A DNA stretch of 43,102 nucleotides from assembly GCA_009693105.1 (NCBI GenBank), contig SHXV01000007.1, positions 1-43,102 on the forward strand, read 5' to 3'. The notes beneath the pieces were generated by a model that saw nothing but the letters and a program-made list of their open reading frames with translations, did not search any database and was not told where the DNA came from. Source of the DNA: Dehalococcoidia bacterium (GTDB lineage: Bacteria; Chloroflexota; Dehalococcoidia; SHXV01). Made by a program: the position numbers and the translations under genes. Positions 26,305 to 34,897 of this stretch are shown here, one piece after another (within the stretch, counting starts at the first letter, position 1; each line of letters begins with the position of its first letter).

Positions 26305-27633
26305 CTACGCCCCGTCCGCAAGCAGGGTGACGAGGAAGCTCGCCAGGTTAAACGTGAAATGCATCGCTACCGCCGTCCACAGGCTGTTTGTCCGATAGTA
26401 TAACCACGCCAGCACCACGCCGACGAGAGCAAAGGGAATGACGCTCCCGGGATCCCAGTGCGCGACGGAAAACAGGGCGCTGCTCACGCCCGCCGCCGGC
26501 CAGAACCCCCCGCGGGTAAGCCCGGCAAACACAAAGCCGCGGAAGAACGCCTCTTCCAGCAAGGGGGCGGCCACCACGCTGATCGCGCCCGCGGCGATGA
26601 TCGTGGCCACGCTATCGAACACGTCCTCCCCCAGGGTGCTCTCCGGGAGGAGTCGATCCGCCCCCAGCGCCTCAATAGCGATGCCATAGACGATAAGGAT
26701 CGCCCACGCGCTGAGCACCCCCACCAGCGCGTAGCGAAGCTCTCGCCGCCCTAGCTGGCGTAACCCGAAGCCACGCCGCCAGCCTAGGCCGTGCCGGCGC
26801 AGCGCCAGCCGGTACGCCAGCAGGACCACCGCCGCATCGGCGATAGCGGTGGCGACAAGCCCGGTAAGGAGCACGCTGTTATCGGCCGGGTTCCCGCCCT
26901 CCACAAGATAGAGGACGCCGCTGCTAATCAGGAGAACGGCCACGATAGTGGCAAACGCCAGCGCGATGCCAAGAGCGACGGCGCGCGGGCCCCACGGGGT
27001 GCGATGCGGCGGCATCCCGATCATGCGCGGCTCCCGGACCGGTCGCTGCTGCCAGCGCCGGCGGCGAATGTGCGGGCGGGGGATGCCGGGCAGCCGCAGG
27101 TGCCAAAGCGGCAGCACCGGCAGCGCCGGGAGAGCCGGCCACTCCATCGAGGGGAGAGCGCGCGGCCACGCCCAGGGCCGGCGGAAGCAGACGCGCAGTG
27201 GCCAGCGCCATTCTTGGCGAGGGCGAGGGCGCGGGGGGCGTGGGCGCGGCGCGGGGGGCGGGACCGCCGCAGCCCACGGGGGGGCGGGGGCGGGCGGTGG
27301 CGATTGCGCCAGATGCCCATCGTGCCGGAGGTCATCGATGTCCAGAACGCCGGCGGGCCGCGGACGGGGAGGCCGCCAGGTCACCATTTGCAGCAGGTGC
27401 AAGGTACGCTGCCGGTCGTATTGCAGCCGCCGGCTCGCGTCGTTCAGCGCCTGCCACGCCTCGTTGATCTCCGGGATGCGGCGGGTTGCCTGAACCAACC
27501 GCTCCTTGCCCTGAGCGGTCCAGCGGTCCGGATGGTGCTGTTCGATCAGCGCGCGCCAGGCGGAGCGCAGTTCTTCCGCGCTCGCCGGTGGCTCTACGCC
27601 CAGTACGGCGTAATAGTCCTTCTTCGGATCCAT
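26305..27633 (-). CDS. J-domain protein fused to CPBP intramembrane metalloprotease
   Basis: A 442-residue fusion. Residues ~5-75 are a DnaJ J-domain (DYYAVLGVEPPASAEELRSA, with HPD at 34-36), which in known proteins stimulates Hsp70 ATPase. Residues ~84-215 are a Pro/Arg/Trp-rich low-complexity linker with no DnaJ-type G/F or zinc region. Residues ~220-442 are a polytopic CPBP (CAAX/Rce1-like, ABI) domain with all three motifs: EEAFFRG (~360), FSVAH (~388-392) and HFTFN (~425-429). It lies between trpB and trpA, 29 and 2 bases away. Start ATG 27633 with GAGGG upstream. A chaperone-guided membrane protease is an inference; no tryptophan-pathway role is evident. Confidence 0.85.
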   Translation of the reverse strand: MDPKKDYYAVLGVEPPASAEELRSAWRALIEQHHPDRWTAQGKERLVQATRRIPEINEAWQALNDASRRLQYDRQRTLHLLQMVTWRPPRPRPAGVLDIDDLRHDGHLAQSPPPAPAPPWAAAVPPPAPRPRPPRPRPRQEWRWPLRVCFRRPWAWPRALPSMEWPALPALPVLPLWHLRLPGIPRPHIRRRRWQQRPVREPRMIGMPPHRTPWGPRAVALGIALAFATIVAVLLISSGVLYLVEGGNPADNSVLLTGLVATAIADAAVVLLAYRLALRRHGLGWRRGFGLRQLGRRELRYALVGVLSAWAILIVYGIAIEALGADRLLPESTLGEDVFDSVATIIAAGAISVVAAPLLEEAFFRGFVFAGLTRGGFWPAAGVSSALFSVAHWDPGSVIPFALVGVVLAWLYYRTNSLWTAVAMHFTFNLASFLVTLLADGA

Positions 27634-27641
27634 GCGCCCTC

Positions 27642-27664
27642 AGGAGTGCCAGTTGCGCACTCCT
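27642..27664 (-). other. Hairpin at the trpB / J-domain gene junction
   Basis: AGGAGTGC and GCACTCCT form a perfect 8-bp stem with a seven-base loop. It overlaps the trpB stop codon and lies just before the ribosome site of the next gene. No T-run follows on the transcribed strand, so it is more likely an mRNA-processing or translation-tuning hairpin than a terminator. Confidence 0.5.
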
Positions 27665-28880
27665 AATGACGATCATCGACAGCTTTAGCTGAATCGGCCA
27701 ACCCCAGGGCGGCGATCACGGTGTTCATATCTTTATCGCCCCGGCCGGAGAGGTTGACCAGAAGCGTCTTCCCCTCCTCCATCTCCCCCGCCATGCGGGC
27801 GGCGTAGGCCACGGCGTGCGCGGACTCCAACGCCGGGACGATGCCCTCCGTCTCGCAGAGGAGGCGAAAGCCGGCCAGCGCCTCCGCATCGGTCACGGCG
27901 ACGTACTCCGCCCGCCCGCTGTCCTTCAGGTAGCTGTGCTCCGGGCCGACACCGGGGTAATCGAGCCCGGCAGAAATGCTTTCCGTCTCCTCCACCTGCC
28001 CGAACGCATCCTGGAGCAGGTATGACTTCGCGCCGTGCAGCACCCCAGGCGTCCCGGAGAGCAGGCTGGCCGCGCCGTGGCCGTCGCCCTTCCCCGCCGC
28101 CTCTACCCCCACCAGCCTGACCGCGGCGTCATCGAGAAAGGCGCTGAACATGCCGATGGCGTTGCTGCCGCCGCCCACACAGGCGACGACGACATCGGGC
28201 AAGCGCCCGTCCCGCTCCAGCATCTGGGCGCGCGCCTCCCGGCCGATCACGGACTGGAAGTCCCGGACGATGCGCGGATACGGGTGCGGCCCCACGGCGC
28301 TGCCCAGCAGATAGTGACTGCTCTCCACGTTGGTCACCCAGTCCCGGATCGCCTCGTTGATCGCGTCCTTCAGTGTGCGGCTGCCGCTGTCCACGGGCCG
28401 AACTTCGGCGCCCAGCAGCCGCATGCGGTAGACATTCAGGCTCTGCCGCCGGATGTCCTCCGTCCCCATGTAGACCACGCACTCCAACCCCAGCATCGCA
28501 CAGACGCTGGCCGTGGCGACGCCGTGCTGCCCCGCGCCCGTCTCCGCGATGATGCGGCGCTTGCCCAGCCGCTTCGCCAGCAGCCCCTGGCCCAGGGCGT
28601 TGTTGATCTTGTGGGCACCCGTGTGCGCCAAGTCTTCCCGCTTGAGGTAGATACGCGCCCTCCCGCTGCGCTCGCTCAGGTTGGCCGCGTAAGTGATGGG
28701 TGTCGGGCGGCCGACGTAGTCGCGGTTGAGCCGCTCCAACTCCGCCCCGAACGTGGGATCGAGGCGGACCTCCTCGTAGGCGGCGGTCAGCTCCTCCAGG
28801 GCGCTCATCAGCGTCTCCGGAACGTAGCGGCCGCCGTAATCGCCGAAATAGCCCCGCTCGTCCGGCAGAATCGTCGTCAT
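27663..28880 (-). CDS. trpB: Tryptophan synthase beta subunit
   Basis: PLP enzyme condensing indole with serine, 405 residues. The N-terminal [20 protein letters not shown], the PLP-lysine motif [30 protein letters not shown], the phosphate-binding [12 protein letters not shown] and [11 protein letters not shown] are all intact. It is the classical TrpB1 type. Start ATG 28880; GAGAGAGG lies upstream. A REP-like palindrome occupies the 40-base gap to the preceding trpF-RAYT fusion. Confidence 0.97.
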
Positions 28881-28910: not shown

Positions 28911-28932
28911 GGACAGGCCTTCAGGCCTGTCC
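28911..28932. repeat. REP-like palindrome 1
   Basis: GGACAGGCCT and its reverse complement are separated by TC, with GTAG directly 5' (28907-28910). A GTAG-type tetranucleotide at the foot of the hairpin is the known signature of REPs linked to RAYT transposases. The stop codon of the trpF-RAYT fusion (28921-28923) lies inside it. Confidence 0.85.
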
Positions 28933-29379
28933 TAACCGCTCCGGTGGGCCCATAAACGGATATTGTTCCCGAGTACTGGTAAGCCCTGCGTTCACCGGAT
29001 TATTCCAGATGTAGTCGGCGGCGACCCTGATATCCTCATCTCGCCTCAAGACATGGTCGTAGTAACTTCGCTGCCACAGTGGTCGACCGAACCGGCGCCG
29101 AAATCTATATCCCGTCCCCTGCTTGAACTGCTTCATAAAGGCTGGGAGTGAAGAGCCGTCGCTCCCCTTCACCAGCAGGTGCAGATGACTCGGCATAAAA
29201 CAGTAGGCCAGCACATCGAAGCCGTGCTTGGCGGATATCGTTCCTAATAACTGGGTACAGTCGTCGACAAACGAGGCCATGCGAAAGTCATCTCGGGCAG
29301 CCGTGCTGATGGTCAGGCTATAGACGTACGGGCCGAGATAGTCGAAATTGGACAGTCGCGGCGAAGAGCGACGCGGGTT
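28921..29379 (-). mobile_element. RAYT (Y1 transposase) portion of the trpF fusion
   Basis: The transposase-like moiety with its associated REP palindromes at 28911-28932, 29383-29404, 29437-29458 and 29485-29506. RAYTs are IS200-related but usually single-copy and domesticated. No IS200-type left/right ends or target duplication were recognised beyond the palindromes. Confidence 0.75.
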
Positions 29380-30177
29380 GAAGGACAGACCTGAAGGTCT
29401 GTCCGTACGGTCTACTGTCCTTTCACCGCCCTGCAGGGACAGGCCTTCAGGCCTGTCCCTCTGCCCTGTGGCCTTAACTTGTACGGACAGGCCTAAAGGC
29501 CTGTCCGCCTGCCTTACGGCCGCGACGAAGGCACGAATCTTTTCGTGGTCCTTGGCCCCGTCCGTCTCCACGCCGCCGCTCACATCCACCCCCCACGGCC
29601 GCACGGCGGCGATCGCCTCCGCCACGTCCTCCGCCGTTAGCCCTCCCGCCAGCATCGACGGTCGTGCTGCAGCGTAGCGGGCGGCGGCGGCGGCATCGAC
29701 CCGCTCCCCCGTGCCGCCAAGCTTCGTCGCGTGGCTCGCCTCCAGCAGCGGCAGCATCGTCAGCGGAAGCGCATCCGGGTCGTCCCCCTCGTCCGGCCGC
29801 ACCGCCACGATGAGCGGCCAGCCGTCCAGCGCCACCGCCTGCGCTAACGCGCTGCGGCCGGAAAGCTGGATCGCGTCCAGCCCGATGCTCCGGGCGGCCT
29901 GCGCGATCTCCTCCCCCGCCTCCTCGCCGAACACGCCGACGACGAGCGGCCGGCGCGCCGTCAGCGCCAACTCGAACCACTCCGCGCCGGAAGGGGGGAT
30001 GACCGACATCATAGCCGGCCGCTCCCCCAGCTCCGCGACGATGGCGCGCGCCATCTCCGGGCCGGCGCGACGGCGGGACTGCGTCAGCACCATACCGATG
30101 AAGTCTGCGCCCGCGTCCGCCGCCGCGCGAGCGGCCTCTATGGTTCGAACACCGCAAATCTTGATCCGAACGCTCAT
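28921..30177 (-). CDS. trpF: Phosphoribosylanthranilate isomerase fused to a REP-associated tyrosine transposase
   Basis: 418 continuous codons. Residues 1-224 are TrpF (phosphoribosylanthranilate isomerase): catalytic Cys in [18 protein letters not shown], and catalytic Asp in GVDVSGGVE. Residues 225-266 are a linker made by three REP-like palindromes, each read as DRPxGLS. Residues ~267-418 are a Y1/[23 protein letters not shown] opening, HLH metal motif at 331-333 (MPSHLHLLV), [18 protein letters not shown], and the likely nucleophile Tyr389 in [13 protein letters not shown]. No ATG, GTG or TTG lies between TrpF and the transposase fold, so the latter can be made only as a fusion unless CTG is used. 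The start overlaps trpC (ATGA). Bifunctionality is untested. Confidence 0.9.
29383..29404. repeat. REP-like palindrome 2 (within trpF-RAYT)
   Basis: GGACAGACCT / AGGTCTGTCC around GA, flanked by GTAC when read on the minus strand. It encodes residues ~258-265 (DRPSGLS) of the fusion. Confidence 0.85.
29437..29458. repeat. REP-like palindrome 3 (within trpF-RAYT)
   Basis: GGACAGGCCT / AGGCCTGTCC around TC, preceded by GCAG (with one extra G). It encodes DRPEGLS (residues 241-247). It is identical in core to palindrome 1. Confidence 0.85.
29485..29506. repeat. REP-like palindrome 4 (within trpF-RAYT)
   Basis: GGACAGGCCT / AGGCCTGTCC around AA, preceded by GTAC on the plus strand. It encodes DRPLGLS (residues 225-231), exactly where TrpF homology ends. 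It is in inverted orientation to palindrome 2, as in bipartite REP elements. Confidence 0.85.
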
Positions 30178-31019
30178 CGCCCGTGCAGCTCCTTCATCTT
30201 CGCCACCACATCGCCCGCCGTCACCAGCGCTTCCCCCACCAGGATGACGTCCGCCCCGGCGGCGGCGACACGCGCCACATCGGCGGCGGTGCGGATGCCG
30301 CTCTCCGCCACCAGCAGGCAGTGCTCCGGCACGAACTTCGCCAGCCGCTCCGTCGTGCCCAGGTCCTCCTGGAACGTGCGCAGGTCGCGGTTGTTCACGC
30401 CGATGACTGTCGCGCCCGCGTTCACGGCCTTCGCCATCTCGTCCTCGTCGTGCACCTCCACCAGCGTGCCCATGCCCAGCGCCTCCGCCTCCGCCAGCAG
30501 ATCGTAGAGCTGCTCACCATCCAGCAGCGCCGCGATGAGCAGGATGGCGTCCGCCCCGAAGGCGCGCGCCTCCTCCACGTGGTAGGAGTCGAAGAGGAAA
30601 TCCTTGCGCAAAAGCGGCGGCCGCCCGTGAGAGAACTCGCCGTCCAGCCCCACGCGAATGTCGTGCAGCATGCCGATGCTGCCCTGGAAGTGCTTTTCCT
30701 CCGTCACCACGGAGATGGCGTTCGCGCCGCTGAGGGTGTAGTCGCTGGCCAGGTGAACCGGGTCCATGCCCTCCGGCATGAGCCTGCCCTTCGATGGCGA
30801 AGCGCGCTTCACCTCCGCGATCACGGCGACACGGCCACCCTGGGGCAGTCCCGTGGAGCCGCCGCGCAGCGCACCCTCGAAGTCGAGGGCGGACGGCTCC
30901 GCCCGCATCCGCTCCCGCAGCTCCTCGAGGGGGCGCTCACGGCGCAGCCGCTCCAGCTCCTCGCGCTTGTCGGCGATGATGCGATCGAGATAGGTGCCGG
31001 TGGAGCGTGGACCTGTCAT
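30174..31019 (-). CDS. trpC: Indole-3-glycerol phosphate synthase
   Basis: Ring-closing step of tryptophan synthesis, a 281-residue barrel. It shows TYLDRIIADKREELERLRRE at the N-terminus, VIAEVKRASPSKGRL (catalytic Lys), ANAISVVTEEKHFQGS, LLRKDFLFDSYHVEEARAFG, GVNNRDLRTFQ and VAESGIRTAADV. The ATG at 31019 overlaps the trpD stop (ATGA), and its own TGA overlaps the trpF ATG, so trpD-C-F are tightly coupled. Confidence 0.96.
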   Translation of the reverse strand: MTGPRSTGTYLDRIIADKREELERLRRERPLEELRERMRAEPSALDFEGALRGGSTGLPQGGRVAVIAEVKRASPSKGRLMPEGMDPVHLASDYTLSGANAISVVTEEKHFQGSIGMLHDIRVGLDGEFSHGRPPLLRKDFLFDSYHVEEARAFGADAILLIAALLDGEQLYDLLAEAEALGMGTLVEVHDEDEMAKAVNAGATVIGVNNRDLRTFQEDLGTTERLAKFVPEHCLLVAESGIRTAADVARVAAAGADVILVGEALVTAGDVVAKMKELHGR

Positions 31020-32032
31020 CGCCGGTTCGTGACCTCCACAAAGCGCTCCATCGCCCGCTGCGCCGCGCCCGAATCGAGCGCTTCCCGCGCCTTGCGCAGC
31101 CCCTCCGCCAGGTTGGGGGCGATGTCCGCCGCCAGCAGCGCCGCCGCCGCGTTCAGCAGCACGATGTCGCGCAGGGCGGCCGGTCCCCCTCCCGCCAGCA
31201 GCGCGCGCATGGCGCTGGCGTTGGCCGCCGCGTCTGCGCCCTTCAGCGCTTCCGGCGTGGCGACGGCCAGCCCGAGGTCGCCGGGGGTGATGCGATAGTG
31301 GCGCACCGCGCCATTCTGCAGCTCCCACACCAGTGTCCCCGCCGTCGTCGTCAGCTCATCCAGCCCGTCCTCGCCGTGGACGACGAGCGCGTGCTTCGAC
31401 CCCAGCCGTCGCAGCGTGTGGGCGATGCGCTCCCCCAGGTCCGGTGCCGGTACGCCGACGACCTGCGCCTTCGCGTGGGCGGGGTTAGTCAGCGGACCGA
31501 GGATGTTGAACACGGTGCGCACGCCAATCTCCCGGCGGGGCCCGGCGGCGTGCTTCATCGCCGGGTGGTACGCCGGGGCGAACATGAACCCCACGCCCGC
31601 CTCCGTGATCGCCCGCGCCACCTGCTCCGGTGACTGCTCCACCTTCGCCCCCAGCGCCTCCAGCACATCGGCGGAACCGGCCTTGCTGGAGAGGGCACGG
31701 TTGCCGTGCTTGGCCACCTTCGCCCCCGCCCCCGCCGCCACGAACGCCGCCGCCGTGGAGACGTTGAAGGAGCCGCTGCCGTCGCCGCCGGTGCCGCAGG
31801 TGTCGAGCAGCGGGCCGTCGTAGGGGACGCGCACGGCCATGTCCCGCATCACGCCCGCCATGCCTGCGATCTCGGCGTCTGTCTCCCCCTTCACCCGCAG
31901 GGCGATGAGGAACGCGCCGAGCTGCGCCTCCGTGGCGGTGCCGGTCATGATCTCCGTCATGACGTCGGCGGCCTCCTCCTCCGTCAGGTCGTGGCGGTCC
32001 AGCACCCGCGCGATCGCGTCACGTATGGTCAT
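31016..32032 (-). CDS. trpD: Anthranilate phosphoribosyltransferase
   Basis: Adds PRPP to anthranilate. The glycine-rich PRPP loop CGTGGDGSGSFNVST is present, along with KHGNRALSSKAGSADVLEALG, FMFAPAYHPAMKHAAGPRRE, FNILGPLTNPA, and the VVHGEDGLDELTTT signature. About 338 residues. The start at 32032 (MTIRDAIARVLDRHDLTEEE) is chosen over ATGs at 32041/32038 because AAGGG is then about eight bases upstream. It is followed by trpC with an ATGA overlap. Confidence 0.96.
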   Translation of the reverse strand: MTIRDAIARVLDRHDLTEEEAADVMTEIMTGTATEAQLGAFLIALRVKGETDAEIAGMAGVMRDMAVRVPYDGPLLDTCGTGGDGSGSFNVSTAAAFVAAGAGAKVAKHGNRALSSKAGSADVLEALGAKVEQSPEQVARAITEAGVGFMFAPAYHPAMKHAAGPRREIGVRTVFNILGPLTNPAHAKAQVVGVPAPDLGERIAHTLRRLGSKHALVVHGEDGLDELTTTAGTLVWELQNGAVRHYRITPGDLGLAVATPEALKGADAAANASAMRALLAGGGPAALRDIVLLNAAAALLAADIAPNLAEGLRKAREALDSGAAQRAMERFVEVTNRR

Positions 32033-32247: not shown

Positions 32248-32304
32248 GGACAGACCTTTAGGCCTGTCCCTCCCCTTCACCCGGACAGACCTGAAGGTCT
32301 GTCC
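32248..32304. repeat. Pair of REP-like palindromes (5 and 6) between trpG and trpD
   Basis: Palindrome 5 (32248-32269: GGACAGACCT, TT, AGGCCTGTCC; one G:T-type mismatch) is preceded by GTAC on the plus strand. Palindrome 6 (32283-32304: GGACAGACCT, GA, AGGTCTGTCC) is preceded by GTAG on the minus strand. The two face each other, 13 bases apart, forming a BIME-like unit. It lies in the 86-base gap after trpG. Confidence 0.85.
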
Positions 32305-34581: not shown

Positions 34582-34617
34582 AAAACCCCTCGGTCCCATA
34601 CGTAAGGGACGAGGGGT
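34582..34617 (-). terminator. T-box-regulated intrinsic terminator
   Basis: On the minus strand CCCCTCG-TCCC pairs with GGGA-C-CGAGGGG and is followed by TTTTG. The 5' arm overlaps the region after the T-box antiterminator, giving the usual mutually exclusive terminator/antiterminator pair. Confidence 0.85.
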
Positions 34618-34897
34618 ACTCGCGGTGCCACCCTTGTTGACGCCCCACAGCGGGAGCGCCCACTTCAATGTCGAGACACGGCCACGCAGGACGCGGGCGA
34701 TGCTCCAGGCTTCGATAACGGGGCCATCCCGGCGGTGCCTACTTGCCATCCGGCTCGGGCCATCTGGCGTTCGGGCCGCGGCTCCCAGGGCCATTCGGCT
34801 GCTGCGCTGGCGCCGGGCTTCCACCACGCTCCGGCTCTCTGTAGCCCCGCTTCGCGGCGTACTCTTCCTGTTCGCAGCGATTCGGTATTCGGTTGTA
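34582..34897 (-). ncRNA. T-box riboswitch (tRNA-Trp sensing) of the trp operon
   Basis: The minus-strand leader holds the canonical T-box AAGGGTGGCACCGCG (34621-34635), whose bulge pairs with uncharged tRNA NCCA ends. Stem I shows AGAGTA on the 5' side, a distal GAGAGCC...GTGGAAG region, and lower-stem pairing of GCTGCG and CAGG with CCTG and CGCGGC. In the matching internal loop, GAATGGCC places TGG (34791-34793) as the specifier codon, that is, Trp. Uncharged tRNA-Trp would favour antitermination and expression of trpE and everything downstream. The specifier assignment is from hand folding. Confidence 0.9.

Follow-up and report, generated by a model that had tools for sequence, protein, structure and literature searches.

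Can a REP-associated tyrosine transposase (RAYT) be made as the tail of a tryptophan-biosynthesis enzyme, and is such a fusion an accident of a single genome or part of something that these elements do more widely? The question is raised by positions 1 to 43,102 of contig SHXV01000007.1 from Dehalococcoidia bacterium (assembly GCA_009693105.1), a stretch of 43,102 nucleotides that we call the window, in which trpF runs without interruption into a RAYT. In the literature, RAYTs are described as always flanked by two inverted REPs (PMC2817692) and as domesticated, single-copy and vertically inherited (PMC8049555), with a role that has yet to be settled (PMC6006769). Our analysis indicates that the fusion is best seen as one form of a wider RAYT habit, a real and unusual variant of the known REPtron. 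The explanation that we regard as probable is a translation-compatible REPtron located at the trpF/trpB junction of a T-box-led operon, giving a single TrpF-linker-RAYT chain of approximately 45 kDa and recurring in the class.

A single open frame joins TrpF to a RAYT

The initial annotation of this DNA described one uninterrupted frame of 418 codons leading from TrpF into a RAYT, with no strand given; our ORF and domain searches recover that frame on the minus strand, with a 41-residue linker between its two domains (Table 1). A codon scan of the fused frame agrees with the accompanying statement that no ATG, GTG or TTG lies in frame between them: there is none between GTG203 and ATG300, and a chain begun at ATG300 would be missing the initial strand of the RAYT as modelled.

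The TrpF part matches PF00697 (E 1e-31, 110.6 bits, above the gathering score of 22.7) and is covered from residue 2 to residue 225 by the NCBIfam TrpF models, with a score of 134.5 that is below their full-length cut-off of 215. Both catalytic residues, Cys and Asp, had been described as kept, which is correct for the first and incorrect for the second. Cys8 is present in all 57 aligned TrpF rows; at the catalytic Asp position, 52 of the 57 rows have Asp and five, including the window, have Glu (one genome is represented twice in this alignment, and Glu is found in 4 of the 56 rows other than the window's). The residue concerned, Glu146 (codon at 29740-29742), aligns with Asp126 of the T. maritima PRAI (1lbm), which we take to be the catalytic Asp, and it may still do that residue's job. 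The other four Glu-bearing TrpF loci had no RAYT match, and one of them (L045) ends right after trpF.

The RAYT part matches NF047646 (REP-associated tyrosine transposase) over residues 284-408 with 87.9 bits, and with 91.3 bits when searched alone, against a cut-off of 80; it also matches PF01797 (E 1.1e-10). In a profile search, its best PDB match is the E. coli TnpAREP (4er8, E 9.8e-15). The HLH at 331-333 represents the HUH motif, and in the alignment with 4er8 Tyr389 and Asn393 take the places of Tyr115 and Asn119, which supports the metal motif and the Tyr389 proposed initially. Y115F is a catalytic mutant of TnpAREP (PMC8266576) and N119 a metal ligand (PMC6006769). Judged by alignment, the HUH, Tyr and Asn residues of the window's RAYT are intact. 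It is the only RAYT found in its genome, and its closest relatives, at 56-57% identity, are too distant for a dN/dS test.

An AlphaFold2 model of the fusion with 14 TrpF relatives, whose alignment held TrpF rows only and no RAYT rows, gave a mostly confident TrpF (block means of 64-98 across residues 1-220), an unordered stretch at residues 228-283 (pLDDT <50) and a weak RAYT. The RAYT modelled alone with one relative (two sequences) had a mean pLDDT of 55. The models thus support a predicted flexible linker, and not RAYT function.

Table 1. Features of the trp operon and of the fused frame in the window.
Feature	Position	Strand	Description
T-box leader	34602..34884	-	ahead of trpE; UGG at specifier position
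REP pair, REPIN-like	32248..32304	.	GTAG and GTAC ends; between trpG and trpD
trpC (IGPS)	30174..31025	-	start inferred; stop overlaps trpF start by 4 nt
Fused trpF-RAYT frame	28921..30177	-	418 codons and stop; 45.2 kDa
TrpF part	29503..30177	-	residues 1-225; Cys8 kept, Glu146 at the catalytic Asp position
Linker	29380..29502	-	residues 226-266; three translated REPs; no stop, no start; predicted unordered
REP 1	29485..29506	-	end of trpF, in frame; no GTAG tag
REP 2	29437..29458	-	in frame; 48 nt after REP 1
REP 3	29383..29404	-	in frame; 54 nt after REP 2; 5' GTAC tag
ATG300	29278..29280	-	first in-frame start past GTG203
RAYT part	28921..29379	-	residues 267-418 and stop; HLH 331-333, Tyr389, Asn393
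REP 4	28911..28932	+	downstream of RAYT, inverted; GTAG tag on the plus strand; contains the TGA stop of the fused frame
trpB (PALP)	27663..28880	-	starts 40 nt past the fused stop; purine-rich GGGGAGAGAGG upstream

REPs flank the RAYT and encode the linker

The REPs at this locus are perfect 22-nt palindromes, with short spacers between the three upstream copies, and as RNA they form hairpins of -16.8 to -23.6 kcal/mol. REPs 1-3 are read in frame as DRPLGLS, DRPEGLS and DRPSGLS, the first Asp being residue 225, and REP 4 ends, in the sense of the RAYT, with CTAC, the inverted GTAG. The window holds six REP sites against 0.07 expected, four at the fusion locus and two elsewhere in the operon, and the whole genome (83.6% complete) holds seven, six of them inside the trp operon. 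The sole REP-pattern match of this genome outside the operon is a REPIN-type REP pair on contig 41, after ftsZ (L023:1321-1391), with GTAG ends and one imperfect arm.

By its sequence, the fusion locus has the makings of a REPtron, that is, a RAYT between inverted REPs. Inverted REPs are found on both sides, the upstream ones with the GTAG tag only in part (GTAC at REP 3 and none at REP 1); the RAYT has no start of its own after the REP, and the locus is therefore classed as a variant REPtron. With a GTAC tag, one RAYT still cuts, at other sites (PMC8266576). Canonical GTAG...CTAC flanks occur in three other genomes of our study (G230, G190 and G113).

The locus resembles the REPtrons of the literature (PMC2817692, PMC6006769, PMC8266576) in that its RAYT belongs to NF047646, carries the HUH, Tyr and Asn residues and has 4er8 as best PDB match, that REPs stand inverted on either side of it and that a single RAYT was found in the genome; unlike them, it has a frame that continues without a stop from TrpF across the upstream REPs, its RAYT lacks the usual start and its REPs are coding. 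In-frame RPEs and intragenic REPs have also been described, and GTAG REPs are known in Chloroflexi as well (PMC3733652); the window shares with these cases GTAG REPs and palindromic repeats that serve as in-frame coding sequence, but differs from them in that the transposase itself would be translated as part of the host protein. TrpF accepts other partners, as in the TrpC-TrpF (NF006945) and TrpF-TrpB (NF010376) fusions, whose partners are enzymes of the same pathway, whereas the partner in the window is a transposase-like nuclease. An in-frame TrpF-TrpB reading was also observed in a Dehalococcoidales genome (L014:3998-5727), and together with NF010376 it provides a precedent for a TrpF with a C-terminal partner.

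The initial annotation knew of no described RAYT-TrpF fusion, and neither do the sources that we searched: in mainly open-access literature, preprints being outside, a search for RAYT together with trpF returned nothing. A search combining phosphoribosylanthranilate isomerase, transposase and fusion protein returned only a paper that appears to deal with cyanobacterial indole alkaloid clusters.

The fused frame belongs to a T-box-led trp operon

Read along the minus strand, the operon has the order T-box, trpE, trpG, REP pair, trpD, trpC, trpF-RAYT, trpB, a DnaJ-CAAX protease gene and trpA, the family assignments of trpA, B, C, D, G and E having been checked by domain search. The Trp T-box claimed ahead of the operon is supported by a match to RF00230 (E 2.8e-18), whose 83.4 bits do not reach the gathering score of 93; as read by eye from the covariance alignment, the specifier position holds UGG. 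Between trpB and trpA, positions 26305-27633 (minus strand) encode a protein that combines an Rce1-like CAAX protease with a DnaJ domain, and a similar CAAX protease sequence precedes trpA in L002, L004 and L146.

We propose that a REPtron entered at the last codons of trpF and removed the trpF stop, the element sitting in the DRPxGLS phase of the REP palindrome. As this phase is free of stops, ribosomes finishing TrpF would go on to translate the three REPs and the RAYT and terminate within the fourth REP, 40 nt ahead of trpB, which would be served by its own purine-rich leader. The product would be a single protein of about 45 kDa in which a flexible linker encoded by the REPs connects TrpF to a RAYT with HUH and Tyr residues; both halves would be working, and the RAYT would process these same REPs. 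Since the RAYT lacks the usual start of its own, its supply would follow the translation of trpF and the T-box of the operon, and tryptophan starvation would be expected to raise it; a RAYT that can be produced only along with a biosynthetic enzyme would give a direct handle on the timing of RAYT production. As an alternative to a tie between the RAYT and amino-acid supply, the initial annotation suggested a recent insertion that left trpF working: the structure of the locus fits an insertion of this kind, but this TrpF carries Glu in place of the catalytic Asp.

RAYTs recur at the trpF/trpB junction

A search for the same fusion in related genomes had been named beforehand as a check. Among the 393 genomes of the class we found 61 RAYT matches (E <= 1e-12) in 41 genomes, and the surrounding DNA was examined for all of them (30 loci first, 31 later). 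In seven of the 61, the RAYT lies between trpF and trpB (the window, G190, G230, G113, G239, G147 and G221), so the join can be rejected as a lone curiosity. These seven represent four families (f1, f66, f50 and f17), the carriers being three of the eight genomes of f17, two of six in f66, one of two in f50 and the sole genome in the order to which the window belongs; such a distribution offers a handle on how an element enters a compact operon without breaking it. In another class of the phylum (158 genomes), none of 26 RAYT matches is located beside trpF or trpB.

One of the seven loci, L073 of G221, contains a second in-frame fusion, a stretch of 451 residues with matches to TrpF (E 3.6e-35) and to the RAYT (82.0 bits). 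Its join is a REP of another type, read as DRSLDLS, and an ATG is present after this REP. Among the matches listed for 60 relatives, and likewise among those listed for 400 genomes of the phylum, the window was the only case with TrpF and RAYT in one match; a scan of named genomes gave at least 15 TrpF relatives, with no fusion among the matches listed. G221 carries another RAYT (L193:14-3352, contig C162) between a TrpB-like PALP gene (33%) and a W/Y-type tRNA synthetase, and a trpE-like sequence directly follows this region, which means that this second RAYT is also among tryptophan genes.

This recurrence bears on whether the fusion could be an assembly or sequencing artefact, in which repeats joined unrelated pieces or an error erased a stop. 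The genome is indeed in 55 contigs and 83.6% complete, and REPs are repeats; however, an independent genome, G221, has the same in-frame join with a different type of REP, five more genomes have a RAYT between trpF and trpB, and repeats of 22 nt are short for a misassembly. We consider an artefact of this kind scarcely credible.

In four of the unfused cases, an in-frame RAYT start overlaps the trpF stop (ATGA in G113, GTGA in G230, and TGATG in both G239 and G147). It is the only start between the trpF stop and the RAYT core in G113 and G239, and it stands ahead of the REP; additional starts exist in G230, ahead of the REP, and in G147, a GTG after the REP. Because of these, and of the ATG in G221, the RAYTs of G221, G147 and G230 could start elsewhere. 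In G190 trpF and the RAYT are not adjacent, another gene standing between them. Towards trpB, five of the seven (G221, G230, G113, G239 and G147) have a RAYT stop that overlaps the trpB start; in G190 the overlap is with a short and partial copy of this start, and in the window the stop does not reach trpB. The partial copy (L140) lies about 110 nt ahead of trpB and has its own REP, as if the junction had been duplicated. Across the class, the RAYTs at trpF/trpB are fused to TrpF or able to start on its stop codon, and most of the seven run through the downstream REP to the trpB start.

These arrangements also concern the idea that one frame yields two proteins, by a non-standard start in the linker or by clipping there, the fusion being only an intermediate. 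CTG codons at 230, 246, 248 and 264, the low pLDDT (<50) of residues 228-283 and the normal starts after the REP in G221 and G147 are consistent with it. Against it, the window's linker has no ATG, GTG or TTG, the REP hairpins would mask much of the start region, and the unfused RAYTs of G113 and G239 have their sole start on the trpF stop, ahead of the REP. Two separate proteins therefore seem to us distinctly unlikely, and a single chain is the reading that we retain.

Six trpF/trpB junctions without a RAYT were read by eye. All of them are tight, with an ATGA overlap in G157, G069, G248 and G050 and a gap of <20 nt in G136 and G179, and no REP was seen by eye at any of the six. Overlaps between trpF and trpB in these empty relatives suggest a coupling that an insert would disturb, and the message of the window would contain three hairpins of -17 to -24 kcal/mol; the point of the locus could then be RNA, the hairpins between trpF and trpB tuning TrpB output and the RAYT being kept as their supplier. 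This is improbable in our judgement, given that the hairpins of the window fall within the coding frame and would be unfolded by the ribosomes translating it, and that the six empty junctions have no REP by eye. A translated element remains our preferred explanation.

Reading frame, REP phase and selection

Taken alone, the open linker of 41 codons is unremarkable: when the window's linker is shuffled with its dinucleotides kept, 17% of the shuffles are also open, and 4% are open and without a start. What gives it weight is the recurrence of the junction in other genomes. We compared reading frames in the 30 loci of the first batch, the 31 later loci being outside this set, and an automatic search found REP pairs, not each confirmed as true REPs, at 6 of 7 trp RAYTs and at 11 of the 23 located elsewhere. 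Across the upstream REP, the frame of the RAYT stays open in 6/6 trp cases versus 3/11 others (Fisher 0.009), or 7/7 versus 3/11 when G113 is judged by eye (Fisher 0.004), and a start is missing after the REP in 4/6 versus 1/11 (p 0.028), or in 5/7 with G113 (p 0.013); since related genomes share ancestry, all these p-values are optimistic.

Nine of ten upstream REPs are in one phase, G113 being the exception, and the spacings of extra REPs (48 and 54 nt in the window, 51 nt in G239) are all multiples of three; G147 has one REP unit fewer than G239. It is important to note that, by direct codon reading, the DRPxGLS frame of the palindrome has no stop with any loop dinucleotide seen, whereas the other two frames meet stops with some loops. 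For this reason, the common phase may be a mere survivor effect.

In two close pairs, from families f17 and f66, the RAYT cores are under purifying selection, with dN/dS values of 0.21 (G239/G147) and 0.154 (G230/G190). The N-terminal extensions evolve almost neutrally (0.81 and 0.53, respectively), and the C-terminal values are 0.25 and 0.69. The translated REP regions are therefore less constrained, clearly so in three of these four values, yet their frame stays open.

A REP census with one pattern (<=2 mismatches) in 20 genomes was positive in 16, the reversed pattern, used as a control, giving 0 matches everywhere except for one in G113. The counts for the trp carriers were 37 in G221, 20 in G147, nine in G190, seven in G239, seven in the window's genome and three in G230; G113, which has another type of REP, gave none. 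G211, with 51 REPs, and G248, with 50, have their RAYTs away from trpF/trpB, which indicates that the number of REPs does not track the trp location.

All of this has to be set against a passive accident, in which a REPtron removed the trpF stop, the frame was open by chance, TrpF tolerates its tail and the RAYT is an unused relic. The 17% of shuffled linkers that are equally open fit such an accident, as do the occurrence of this RAYT as the sole one found in a REP-poor genome and the absence of the element from the junction in G157, G069 and G179, near relatives of other carriers. The HUH, Tyr and Asn residues preserved in the window's RAYT, the purifying selection on cores at the same junction in f17 and f66, and the use of that junction in four families, with two fusions, argue in the opposite direction. 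We find a passive accident unlikely, and a translation-compatible REPtron describes the locus better.

A single origin or repeated arrivals

In a tree of 29 RAYTs, those of the trp junction form the groups {window, G190, G230} (92/82) and {G221, G239, G147} (100/99), with G113 apart, and the trp label needs three changes against 6.4 with shuffled labels; constraining the seven to one clade is not rejected (p-AU 0.13). In a TrpB tree of 47 rows, the label for a trp RAYT needs five changes, at least four of which strong branches make unavoidable. The window is placed there (94/94) together with f2, f21, f34 and others and not with f66, and G157, with its empty junction, is sister to G190 and G230. 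Near relatives of other carriers (G157, G069 and G179) lack the element at trpF/trpB. Several arrivals at one junction look likelier than the alternative, a single ancient insertion followed by descent and many losses, because of the five changes on the TrpB tree and of the tight empty junctions in near relatives of the carriers.

RAYTs at other sites in host genes

Outside the trp operon, RAYTs of the class are likewise neighbours of housekeeping genes: they follow an adenylosuccinate lyase gene in G242 and G277 (L057, L059), lie between ThiF/ThiS and PALP genes in G216, G195 and G224 (L058, L061, L062), and follow purH-type, PEP-utilising-enzyme and coaBC-type genes in G176, G050 and G051. 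The adenylosuccinate lyase and ThiF/ThiS-PALP sites are thus recurrent operon junctions besides trpF/trpB.

We also identified RAYTs in frame inside another host protein. In G044 (L151:1235-4570) a RAYT (90 bits) lies within a frame of 1112 codons of a DUF1156-type (anti-phage-associated) methyltransferase, and the same occurs in three genomes of another class, G574, G723 and G686 (L208, L211 and L213), with RAYT scores of 92.4, 91.7 and 76.3 bits, the last below the cut-off of 80. All four frames have NF042963 matches, with scores that fall far short of its full-length cut-off of 1000, and the methyltransferase part past the RAYT was recognised only by eye in G574. The position of the RAYT within the protein varies, and translated tandem repeats flank those of G574, G723 and G686; near these three, 16 of 16 repeat rows, many of which overlap, have periods that are multiples of three, and the 19 repeat rows of the three loci taken together include two exceptions, which lie in L213 well away from the guest. 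The tandem-repeat scan gave no row for the G044 locus, and a search of L211 for inverted repeats, at one setting, gave none. In mainly open-access literature, preprints being outside, nothing was found on DUF1156, transposase and in-frame together.

The related genomes suggest that elements of this sort are able to reside in host operons within sequence that is translated. A broader reading, which we offer tentatively and would hold somewhat short of probable, is that REPtrons are translated in-frame guests, whose REPs, read in their one always-open frame, would be both DNA targets and coding linkers, with arrays growing in multiples of three; trpF/trpB would be a preferred niche that couples the RAYT to a starvation-induced operon, and the DUF1156 methyltransferase gene another niche, with RAYTs inside the protein. 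Long proteins attributed to "gene fusions or annotation errors" were discarded from a RAYT survey (PMC6006769), and the RAYTs in frame with DUF1156 raise the possibility that guests of this type go unnoticed in surveys where long RAYT proteins are set aside as errors. The long frames of other RAYTs, considered as further fusions, looked by eye like empty readings of GC-rich DNA, except for the fusions named above. Finally, viral contigs contained one ordinary REP-flanked RAYT, which was found twice.
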